From Haloterrigena gelatinilytica (GTDB lineage Archaea; Halobacteriota; Halobacteria; Halobacteriales; Natrialbaceae), in assembly GCF_013342145.1 (NCBI RefSeq), contig NZ_JABUQZ010000001.1, forward strand, positions 1,550,001 through 1,614,000: DNA of 64,000 bases, written 5' to 3'. This document shows, one piece after another, positions 25,836 through 29,339 of the stretch (positions within the stretch are counted from its first letter, which is position 1; each line of letters starts with the position of its first letter). The notes below the pieces were generated by a model. It saw only the letters and a list, made by a program, of their open reading frames with translations, did no database searches and was not told the origin of the DNA. The position numbers were made by a program, and so were the translations under genes.

Positions 25836-26675
25836 ATGTACGGCGTCGTCACGCGTAACGCTGAAGAGGTCCGCTGGCCGGAGTTCGACCGCGGTTTCTA
25901 CGAGGTCAAAGACGTGACCGGCCGGTCCGCCGAGCCCATCGAGGACGGCGTCAACATGGTCTCCTGTTTCGGCGACAACGCCGCCGCGGACGCCGACCCG
26001 TCGCTGGTCCCCGTCGACGACATGGGTCGACCGGCCGACCGCGAGCGGGAGTACTTCGACTGGGCCTACATCTGCCCCTGCCGGGAGGACTACCGCGAGG
26101 GGCTGTTCGAGATCATCGACGATTGCGTCGAGGCGAATCCGGACGTCCGACTCGACGACATCGGCTTCCCGCGGGCCGAGTACTGTCGCTGCGGCGTCTG
26201 CGAGCAGCGCTTCGCGGACAGCGAGTACGACGACCGGGGCCAGTGGCGCGCGAGCGTCATCACGGAGTTCGTCGCCGAGGCCGTCGACCGCATCCCCGGC
26301 GACGTCTACATGACTCTCTACCCCGATCCCTACCCCGGCCACCTCTACGAGCGGGCCGGCATCGACCTCGAGGCCCTCGAGGAGTACGTCGACGAGTTCG
26401 TCGTCCCGCTGTACGATACCGCCTACGAAACGACCTACTGGCTCGAGACGATCGCGAAGGGGTTCGAGAGCGCGCTCGACACGCCGTTCAATATCGAATT
26501 GTACGCGGTAAACGTCGACGTCGACAACCTGATCCACGCCCTCGAGGTCGCCGAGGCGTACGGAAACGGCGTTTTCTTCGGCTACGAGGCCAGCAACGCG
26601 CGGGCGGCGCTGCGACGGCGGCGGGCCGACGAGCGCGAGGGGGTCACCCACGGCGAACCGAGTTCCGAATCGTAG
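25836..26675 (+). CDS. Conserved haloarchaeal protein with CxCxxC motif
   Basis: A 279-residue protein that I cannot assign to a named family. It starts MYGVVTRNAEEVRWPEFDRGFYEVKDVTG and has WAYICPCREDYREG, IGFPRAEYCRCGVCEQRF and VYMTLYPDPYPGHLYERAGID. The alternating strands and helices with conserved Asp/Glu and a Pro/Tyr-rich loop look like a TIM-barrel glycoside-hydrolase-like fold, but this is a guess. The CRCGVC group could bind zinc or an iron-sulfur cluster. It stands alone about 140 bases after the 39-residue gene. Confidence 0.75.
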   Translation: MYGVVTRNAEEVRWPEFDRGFYEVKDVTGRSAEPIEDGVNMVSCFGDNAAADADPSLVPVDDMGRPADREREYFDWAYICPCREDYREGLFEIIDDCVEANPDVRLDDIGFPRAEYCRCGVCEQRFADSEYDDRGQWRASVITEFVAEAVDRIPGDVYMTLYPDPYPGHLYERAGIDLEALEEYVDEFVVPLYDTAYETTYWLETIAKGFESALDTPFNIELYAVNVDVDNLIHALEVAEAYGNGVFFGYEASNARAALRRRRADEREGVTHGEPSSES

Positions 26676-26931
26676 TCCGCTCGCTCGGCCTCGAGCGGGC
26701 CGTCCAAGCGCGCATTACCGCGCCGGCGGTCACTACTGTGACCGATTATCGCCTGCTCCGGTAGTGACGTTGAAAGAACACTATTGAACGACGCGTCCGG
26801 CGATATGCCGCGCTCGTTGCGCTTCGTTTCTCGGCCTCGATCGACCGTACGACGCTGTTTCAGGAGTTGGTCGTGGCCTACTGCGCGGAACTGACGAGGC
26901 CCTTTATTGCGGTTTCCCTCGCCCGTGCCGG

Positions 26932-26956: not shown

Positions 26957-28372
26957 ATGACAGATCACCAGCAGTCCACCCAGGAGTCGACGGAACGGCT
27001 ACAGCAGACGACGATGAATCAGGGCCAGGAGGCCATCGAGCAGGCGATCGATCTCCAGCGGAACATGGCCCGGATGGCCCTGAGCGCGATGCAGTGGCAG
27101 GATACGGCCCAGCAGCAGGGGCTCGAGATGACGAAGTCGATGATGCAGGGGTTTCCGGGCCAGCAGTTCACCCAGTCGATAATGCAGAGCTATCTGCAGA
27201 GTCTCGAGGCCGTCATGCCGGAGATGGAGCGCGCGATGGAGAAGGGGATGCAGGCCGCCGCCCAGCCGGGGAGGGAGATGGGCCAGCAGATGGAACGGGC
27301 CGGACAGCAGATGGAGCACGCGAGTCAGGGCGTGGGCCAACAAGGGATGAGCGGCGGCATGCAGTCGTCGGAAATGGGCGGTCAGCAGATGAGTGGGCAG
27401 CAGATGAGTGGGCAGCAGATGGGCGGCCAGCAGTCCGGCGGTCGGACGGGCGGCCAGTGGAACGCGCAGGAAACCGGCGGTCGGATGTCGGGCCAGCAGA
27501 CGAGCGGGTGGCAGATGGGCGGCCAGCAAACGGGTGGCCGACAGATGAGTAGTCAGCAAACGGGTGGCCGGCAGATGGGTGGCCAGCAAACGGGTGGCCG
27601 ACAGACCGGCGGTCGGCAGATGGAAGGGCAACGGATGGGCGGCCAGCAGACGGGCGACCGCGGCCAGCGATCGACGCAGCAGCAGTATCCGGAGACCGGC
27701 GAGTGGGTTTCCCAGGAGCGGACCTACGGCGGCGAGGCCACCGGGACGATGGGACAGCATCAGCCCCAGCGGGCGATCGGGGGCGAGCAACCGAGCCAGC
27801 GCTCACAGGGGGGACGCGTCGAAACGGAGACCGAACAGGGTCGGCGATCCGCGACGCCTACCCAGAGTCCGTCCGAGACGCAGGGCCAGTACGGCCGGCA
27901 AGAGCGCGGCAGCCAGCCGTCCCGACAGGAGCAGGGACGACACCAGCCGCCGCAGCGAACCGACCAGCGGACGCAGGCCCAGCCGTCCCAACGGGACGCT
28001 CGCCAGCCGAGTCAGGGTCGACACGAGCAGCGACAGCGGGGCCGCGAGTTCGGACGGTCGGACCAGCCGCAGTCCCGGCAGGGCCGGTCTCGAGAGCGGT
28101 ACTCGCAGCGAATCGACACCGACCGGCGCGGCGGCGACCGCGGCCGACGGCGCGAGTCGATCGCACAGGATCAGGGCCACCAGAGCGGGTCACAGACCGG
28201 GGAGTTCGGAACACGGGGATCCGACGAGTTCGAATCGTCCGCCGCCGACGCGGAACGCGGTTCCGATTCCGACGAGATGCCACAGGACGACATGGAACTC
28301 TCGGCTGAGCGAAGCGACGACGAGGCCACCGAGGACGCCGAGAGCGAATCGCTCGAGGAGGCGGAGGAATAG
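26957..28372 (+). CDS. Phasin-like helix with long Gln/Gly/Met/Arg-rich repeat tail
   Basis: A 471-residue protein. The first 105 residues form amphipathic helices rich in Gln and Met (QAIDLQRNMARMALSAMQ and similar), reminiscent of phasin or granule-coat proteins. Residues 130-240 are tandem GGQQ(T/M)xGRQM units, followed by a Gln/Pro/Ser/Arg region with many RG and RR pairs, and a strongly acidic last 50 residues. Such basic, Gln-rich, low-complexity composition is rare in the acidic haloarchaeal proteome and suggests a disordered scaffold. A link to PHA granules is speculative: no PHA synthase is nearby. It converges with the LIGDD-repeat protein. Confidence 0.8.
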   Translation: MTDHQQSTQESTERLQQTTMNQGQEAIEQAIDLQRNMARMALSAMQWQDTAQQQGLEMTKSMMQGFPGQQFTQSIMQSYLQSLEAVMPEMERAMEKGMQAAAQPGREMGQQMERAGQQMEHASQGVGQQGMSGGMQSSEMGGQQMSGQQMSGQQMGGQQSGGRTGGQWNAQETGGRMSGQQTSGWQMGGQQTGGRQMSSQQTGGRQMGGQQTGGRQTGGRQMEGQRMGGQQTGDRGQRSTQQQYPETGEWVSQERTYGGEATGTMGQHQPQRAIGGEQPSQRSQGGRVETETEQGRRSATPTQSPSETQGQYGRQERGSQPSRQEQGRHQPPQRTDQRTQAQPSQRDARQPSQGRHEQRQRGREFGRSDQPQSRQGRSRERYSQRIDTDRRGGDRGRRRESIAQDQGHQSGSQTGEFGTRGSDEFESSAADAERGSDSDEMPQDDMELSAERSDDEATEDAESESLEEAEE

Positions 28373-28535: not shown

Positions 28536-29339
28536 CTAGCGAGTGTCGGTGTCGGAGTCTCGGTCGTTGTCGTCGCCGATCAGCGAGTCATCGTCGTTAT
28601 CGTCGCCGATGAGATCGTCATCGTCGTCGTCACCGATCAGCGAGTCGTCGTCACCGATCAGCGAGTCGTCGTCGGTACGACGATCAGTGTCGTCGGTGCG
28701 GCGATCGTTGTCGTCGCCGATCAACGAATCGTCGTCGTTATCGTCACCGATGAGGCCGTCGTCGTCGGATCTGCGGTCGTTATCGTCACCGATCAACGAG
28801 TCGTCATCGTCGTCGTCGCCGATGAGGCCGTCATCGTCGGACGTCCGATCGTTATCGTCGCCGATGAGGCCGTCATCGTCGTCACCGATCAGGTCGTCGT
28901 CGCCGCGATCGGTGCCCGTGTCTGTGCCGGGCGTTCCGGCGCCGGAATCCGTTTCGGAGGCGCCCATACTCGTGTCGGTCGCCCCGGTTTCGGTCTCCCG
29001 CTCGGACGCGCCGGCCGCCGTGTCGCTCGTCGTGGTTCGGTCCGTGTCCATATCCGTCGTTCCGCCGGCGCTGGTCGCACCGCCGCCGGCGCTGCCGGAG
29101 AGGTCGCTCTCGAGGCGGACCGAGTCGCCGGTGACGCGAGCGACCGAGCCCTCCTGGAGCGGGTAGGTGTCCTCGTCGGACCCGCCCCAGCCGAGTTTGG
29201 CCTTGATCGTGTCCGTAATTCCCGGATCCGGTTCGACGTGTGCGGTACCGTGTTCGACGTCCGCGATCAGACCGACCTCCTCGCCGTTCGCGTTGACGAC
29301 GGTCTTGCCGATGTCGTCGTCGGTAAACTGTGGGGACAT
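28536..29339 (-). CDS. PRC-barrel-like protein with ten LIGDD repeats
   Basis: A 267-residue protein with an N-terminal 75-residue PRC-barrel-like domain (FTDDDIGKTVVNANGEEVGLIADVEHGTAHVEPD) followed by a disordered Thr/Ser/Asp/Gly linker and a hyperacidic C-terminal region. From about residue 147 there are ten LIGDD repeats, each set in Asp/Asn runs such as SLIGDDND. The Asp-rich spacing resembles Ca(2+)-binding repeat regions, which is inference. No signal peptide is visible, so it acts in the cytoplasm. The DNA of 28550-28915 is correspondingly repetitive. It faces the Gln/Arg-rich gene across 160 bases. Confidence 0.8.
   Translation of the reverse strand: MSPQFTDDDIGKTVVNANGEEVGLIADVEHGTAHVEPDPGITDTIKAKLGWGGSDEDTYPLQEGSVARVTGDSVRLESDLSGSAGGGATSAGGTTDMDTDRTTTSDTAAGASERETETGATDTSMGASETDSGAGTPGTDTGTDRGDDDLIGDDDDGLIGDDNDRTSDDDGLIGDDDDDDSLIGDDNDRRSDDDGLIGDDNDDDSLIGDDNDRRTDDTDRRTDDDSLIGDDDSLIGDDDDDDLIGDDNDDDSLIGDDNDRDSDTDTR
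28550..28915. repeat. Coding tandem repeat for the LIGDD units
   Basis: The plus strand repeats variants of GTCGTCGCCGATCAGCGAG, spaced 18 to about 60 bases, mirroring the protein repeat. The copies vary at third positions, so they are selected at protein level or are prone to slippage. Confidence 0.8.

Follow-up and report, generated by a model that had tools for sequence, protein, structure and literature searches.

A gene for a putative tailed phasin in Haloterrigena gelatinilytica and its kinship with the haloarchaeal granule protein PhaP

Gene and locus

We analysed a window of 64,000 nucleotides from Haloterrigena gelatinilytica (GCF_013342145.1, contig NZ_JABUQZ010000001.1, positions 1,550,001 to 1,614,000) and identified a forward-strand open reading frame of 471 codons, here called the tailed phasin-like gene, whose boundaries agree exactly with those of the initial annotation (Table 1). 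It is a genuine gene and is found at the same locus in 50 of 125 Natrialbaceae genomes. Its frame is kept intact in dozens of relatives, GC3 is 0.82, and dN/dS is below 1 throughout (0.05–0.19 in the head, 0.16–0.58 elsewhere). The conserved gene order is pyrB, pyrI, a gene of 279 aa, the tailed phasin-like gene, a PRC-barrel protein, an enoyl-CoA hydratase and a Bat-type regulator. A TATA-like TTTATT within a conserved upstream block suggests that the gene has its own, putative promoter.

Table 1. Features at the tailed phasin-like locus, in window positions.
Feature	Position	Strand	Evidence
TATA-like TTTATT, 49 bp 5' of the ATG, inside conserved upstream block	26903..26908	+	five same-genus upstream regions aligned
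Tailed phasin-like gene, 471 aa	26957..28372	+	open reading frame, syntenic orthologues, purifying selection
Phasin-like head, residues ~10-102, two predicted amphipathic helices, core TMNQGQEAIEQAIDLQRNMARMALSAMQWQDTAQQQGLEMTK...QSYLQSLEAVMPEMERAMEKGM	26984..27262	+	PhaP profile comparison, controls, two-way profile searches, AF2
Tandem repeats, Gln/Gly/Met/Arg units (15-bp and 30-bp; GGQQTGGRQM)	27383..27654	+	TRF, codon-shuffle control, copy-number variation
Short conserved motif YPETGEWV in the disordered tail	27686..27709	+	TGEWV-like motif in 42/46 orthologues
Short conserved motif YSQRIDTDRR in the tail	28100..28129	+	YSQRI-like motif in 28/46 orthologues
Acidic C-terminal stretch, residues 426-471	28232..28369	+	net charge -18 over last 45 residues
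Convergent neighbour, N-terminal PRC-barrel-like domain and acidic SLIGDDDD repeats; possible partner	28536..29339	-	conserved adjacency to the tailed phasin-like gene

A query with the first 123 residues gave matches in 54 of the 125 genomes, four of which were weak matches to a paralogous family, leaving 50 true carriers. In 70 genomes without a full match, the sequence that follows the 279-aa gene was retrieved, and none of these regions contained a clear head; the closest case was a marginal remnant in G100 (E 0.03). In many non-carriers the flanking genes for the PRC protein, the hydratase and the regulator have stayed in place, which points to clean gain or loss of the tailed phasin-like gene. 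In G100 (L156) this marginal remnant is all that occupies the slot of the gene, and two further copies likewise appear broken or decaying, one by a frame change within the tail (G027, L004) and one with the head split over two frames (G017, L063). The 279-aa protein (25836-26675, forward strand) is kept in 122 of the 125 genomes, often with 85–90% identity, and has no match in Pfam or NCBIfam; one in-frame stop interrupts some copies of its gene.

The 471-aa protein begins with a helical head, continues with a block of Gln/Gly/Met/Arg repeats and a stretch rich in Gln, Arg and Ser, and closes with an acidic end. It had initially been described as basic, which its pI of 5.12 and net charge of -15 contradict; it is merely less acidic than its neighbours (median pI of window proteins 4.4), and its middle alone is weakly positive (head -6, repeats +4, residues 246–405 +8, last 66 residues -21). 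Gln makes up 20% of the residues, compared with a window median of 2%, and Lys accounts for 2 of 471. The description of the sequence as RG-rich stood only in a weak form: RG occurs seven times and RGG once among the 471 residues, with Arg dispersed between Gln and Ser. Clustered RGG boxes are absent from the protein, with its single RGG, and the median across 46 orthologues is 0. The GGQQTGGRQM repeats of the same annotation proved to be real. TRF detected a 30-bp unit in 5.5 copies (27491-27654, score 160) besides 15-bp units at 27383-27433, and the best repeat score among 200 codon-shuffled versions was 85, none of them reaching 160.

Homology of the head to PhaP

The first clue to the kinship of the head was a weak second family in the 123-residue search, with proteins of 280–320 aa that end in a helix-hairpin-helix (HhH). 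Profile-profile comparison of the head with this HhH family gave 98.1% (E 1e-13), and a first comparison with PhaP gave 92% (E 7e-7). We then used one profile built from the heads of tailed phasin-like proteins only (A1) and one built from pha-cluster PhaP only (A2); with class-wide PhaP sequences, their alignment by hhalign reached 98.5% (E 2.4e-15, score 94). Column shuffles scored at most 19 and heptad-block shuffles at most 50. Column-shuffled and reversed heads remained below 4% probability; heptad-block shuffles came out higher and never reached the real score. PhaE, the negative control, gave 0.2% against the head.

A search of 391 Halobacteria genomes with A1 recovered relatives in other haloarchaeal families, and 13 of the 17 relatives fetched from other genomes were the phasin gene within phaJ1/phaR-P-E-C clusters. 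In the other direction, A2 run over the whole H. gelatinilytica genome recovered PhaP (5e-65), two HhH phasins (4e-37 and 9e-23), a 765-aa PRC-phasin protein (2e-11) and the tailed phasin-like protein (6.3e-10), the next match being at 0.04; this genome thus holds five phasin-domain proteins. Together, the profile comparisons and controls show the head to be a member of the haloarchaeal phasin (PhaP) domain superfamily. The amphipathic helical head of the initial annotation is also borne out by AF2, which predicts helices at residues 5–65 and 69–102 with moderate confidence (pLDDT 70, pTM 0.34). For PhaP the predicted helices span residues 5–70 and 72–160, and both proteins are predicted helical hairpins. 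Pfam and NCBIfam scans of the tailed protein and of its head yielded nothing useful and no phasin model match, and these collections contain no model for PhaP itself or for the tailed phasin-like protein. Neither a PDB sequence search with A1 nor a structure search with the head gave a meaningful match, and the PDB matches of A2 were mostly designed bundles and coiled coils.

The tailed protein and PhaP of Haloferax mediterranei have a homologous helical-hairpin domain of ~90 residues, and both occur only alongside PHA (polyhydroxyalkanoate) synthase. PhaP, however, is a protein of 150–190 aa that is acidic, helical throughout and encoded in the pha cluster phaJ1-phaR-phaP-phaE-phaC, whereas the tailed protein has a disordered tail of ~365 aa where PhaP has a second long helix, and most tailed members contain an insert of ~13 residues around QGFPGQQF. 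An assignment as PhaP orthologue was ruled out by the long disordered tail and by the locus, which does not lie between phaR and phaE. We class the tailed protein as a new variant inside the haloarchaeal phasin-domain superfamily.

Other phasin-domain proteins and the PRC-barrel neighbour

Two phasin-like paralogues of H. gelatinilytica (L194:4531-5538 and L195:3323-4165) have the same N-terminal domain as the tailed protein, followed by a long coiled coil and a C-terminal helix-hairpin-helix and lacking a Gln-rich tail; neither is recognised as a phasin by Pfam or NCBIfam above cut-off. The 765-aa protein (L196:3868-6165, contig C1 about 4088867-4091164) consists of an N-terminal PRC-barrel-like domain joined through a long acidic linker to a phasin-like domain at its C-terminus. 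About 20 Natrialbaceae genomes encode similar long-frame proteins, and G094 encodes an HhH-ended variant (L226:4114-6135). Phasin-like heads with Gln/Pro/Arg-rich tails are encoded in two other haloarchaeal families (L198:4004-5113, L204:3633-4856, L214:2578-3483 and L215:3121-3981). They resemble the tailed protein in combining such a head with a disordered Gln-rich tail and differ from it in tail sequence and locus, and may be either independent fusions or distant relatives.

The convergent neighbour of the tailed phasin-like gene carries SLIGDDDD/DRRSDD repeats in tandem units of 21–72 bp that vary between relatives. In both the H. gelatinilytica genome and G094, its PRC-like domain also occurs in one protein together with a phasin-like domain. 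As a dedicated partner it is a weak candidate, since the PRC gene persists in many genomes that have neither the tailed gene nor the synthase PhaC. The adjacent enoyl-CoA hydratase would suit PHA mobilisation, yet it is equally present where the tailed phasin-like gene is missing.

Co-occurrence with PHA synthase

PhaC (class III PHA synthase, TIGR01836) is encoded by all 50 Natrialbaceae carriers of the tailed phasin-like gene, and none of the 20 PhaC-less Natrialbaceae has the gene (p 2e-5 by genome, 0.04 by genus); the association specific to the tailed gene depends on about five genera in which PhaC was lost. A further 55 Natrialbaceae are PhaC-positive without it, and the gene is thus dispensable. 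Across the class, A1 matched in 162 genomes, all of them among the 222 with PhaC and none among the 169 without. Because A1 also finds PhaP, this co-occurrence speaks for the domain family and not for the tailed gene alone. The haloarchaeal pha cluster and granule proteins have been listed previously (PMC4823750). H. gelatinilytica has a complete cluster (phaJ1, phaR, phaP, phaE, phaC) with PhaP at L096:6730-7215; the tailed phasin-like gene is located ~875 kb away, outside the cluster.

A probable accessory phasin

The product of the tailed phasin-like gene is probably an accessory tailed phasin of PHA granules that works beside PhaP, the main phasin of the pha cluster. According to PMC9049629, H. 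mediterranei has PhaP as its major phasin, and losing it lowers PHA and changes granule number and size. Because the head is homologous to this protein, we infer that the tailed protein binds to granules and is located there. Its first ~105 residues would form a helical hairpin with a hydrophobic face on the PHA granule, and the tail (Gln/Gly/Ser/Arg with an acidic end) would reach out into the salt-rich cytoplasm and, being soluble in high salt, surround the granule with a hydrated layer. This layer might space the granules and keep them regular, and the tail motifs TGEWV and YSQRI may be presented to, and recruit, partners. For the tail, a role as brush or in recruitment is something that we only infer.

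The initial annotation had offered three roles. That of a granule-coat protein is strongly supported for PHA granules specifically, by the homology of the head to PhaP and by the PHA synthase that always accompanies carriers. For a nucleic-acid binder we found no support, because the protein is acidic overall, contains Arg and almost no Lys (it is nearly Lys-free), and has one RGG. The idea of a phase-separating scaffold fits the low complexity of the tail, and nothing else was found in its favour. A scaffold of condensates or RNA granules that is independent of PHA would likewise agree with low complexity, Gln/Gly repeats and some Arg; we regard it as highly improbable, given that the head is a phasin domain, every carrier has PHA synthase, aromatic residues amount to about 3% and RGG occurs once.

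Tail variation and alternative roles

Total length ranges from 206 to 471 aa among 46 orthologues and tail length from ~100 to 365 residues. The orthologue survey proposed with the initial annotation did reveal variation in repeat number, in 10-aa steps between species of the same genus. The tail middle of the 46 orthologues has a median of 31 Arg and 0 Lys, is made up to 58% of Q+G+S+R and contains ~3% aromatic residues and 2% ILVC; F/W/Y/I/L/V/C together amount to ~5% of the tail. This composition and the scarcity of hydrophobic residues indicate that the ~365-residue tail is probably disordered.

Such variation would be expected if the head alone mattered and the protein were a second phasin with an almost neutral filler for a tail, lengthened by repeat slippage: repeat number changes even within a genus, and the reading frame was lost in the tail of G027. 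We consider this unlikely, however, as dN/dS of the tail is still below 1 (0.35–0.58), most orthologues have kept its motifs and composition, and phasin heads of two other families also bear Gln/Pro-rich tails.

Bacterial PhaF (Pseudomonas) and PhaM (Ralstonia) resemble the tailed protein in having a granule-binding helical part and a long disordered tail; in PhaF the helical PHA-binding part is followed by a long disordered tail bearing repeats (PMC5658603). A nucleoid-tethering phasin in the manner of PhaF/PhaM, with the head on the granule, the Arg-containing tail on DNA and granules shared at division, would have the same two-part plan as PhaF (PMC5658603) and would draw on the slightly positive net charge of the tail middle (median +4 over 46 orthologues, +9 in H. 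gelatinilytica). PhaF tails, however, are strongly positive and Lys-rich with AAKP repeats, whereas the tailed protein is nearly free of Lys, has no AAKP-type repeats and matches no bacterial phasin model (Phasin_2 etc.). Its tail is neither Lys-rich nor strongly positive, with a charge near zero per residue, an acidic end (-18 here, a median of -8.5 over the last 45 residues across the 46 orthologues) and, in some orthologues, a neutral or negative middle. In molar KCl, moreover, electrostatic binding to DNA would be weak. Tethering is accordingly quite improbable.

The accessory phasin reading gives an unannotated repeat protein a testable role, and it extends a haloarchaeal phasin family, described through PhaP alone in the literature passages covered, to five or more members within a single genome. 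Titles, abstracts and passages of the open-access literature contained no tailed phasin. A wider view, which we put forward tentatively, is that haloarchaea have diversified unannotated phasins in which one type of head is combined with no tail, an HhH end, a PRC-barrel with an acidic linker or Gln-Gly-Arg repeats. The polyampholyte tail of the tailed protein would then be a salt-proof brush on granules or a platform for recruitment, and repeat slippage would tune its length. The number and size of granules are important in bioplastic production, for which halophiles are employed, and the head could be used as a tag that directs proteins to granules in high salt.

Observations on the pha cluster

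Near-perfect 10-bp tandem repeats (ATGGTATTAG) lie directly 5' of phaR (L096:6343-6375) and are a candidate PhaR binding site. In a search for a shared PhaR-type promoter element, ATGGTATTAG-type repeats were found nowhere in the window or upstream of the tailed phasin-like gene. A second PHA-synthase-like stretch in the H. gelatinilytica genome, split over two frames (G000 contig C1 1192473-1193563, L097), resembles a broken phaC paralogue. The N-terminus of PhaC (L096:7808-9400), NPFATALNMQRQAWE, resembles by eye the start of PhaP, NPVTAVFDAQRTAIE, possibly as a shared granule-surface motif.
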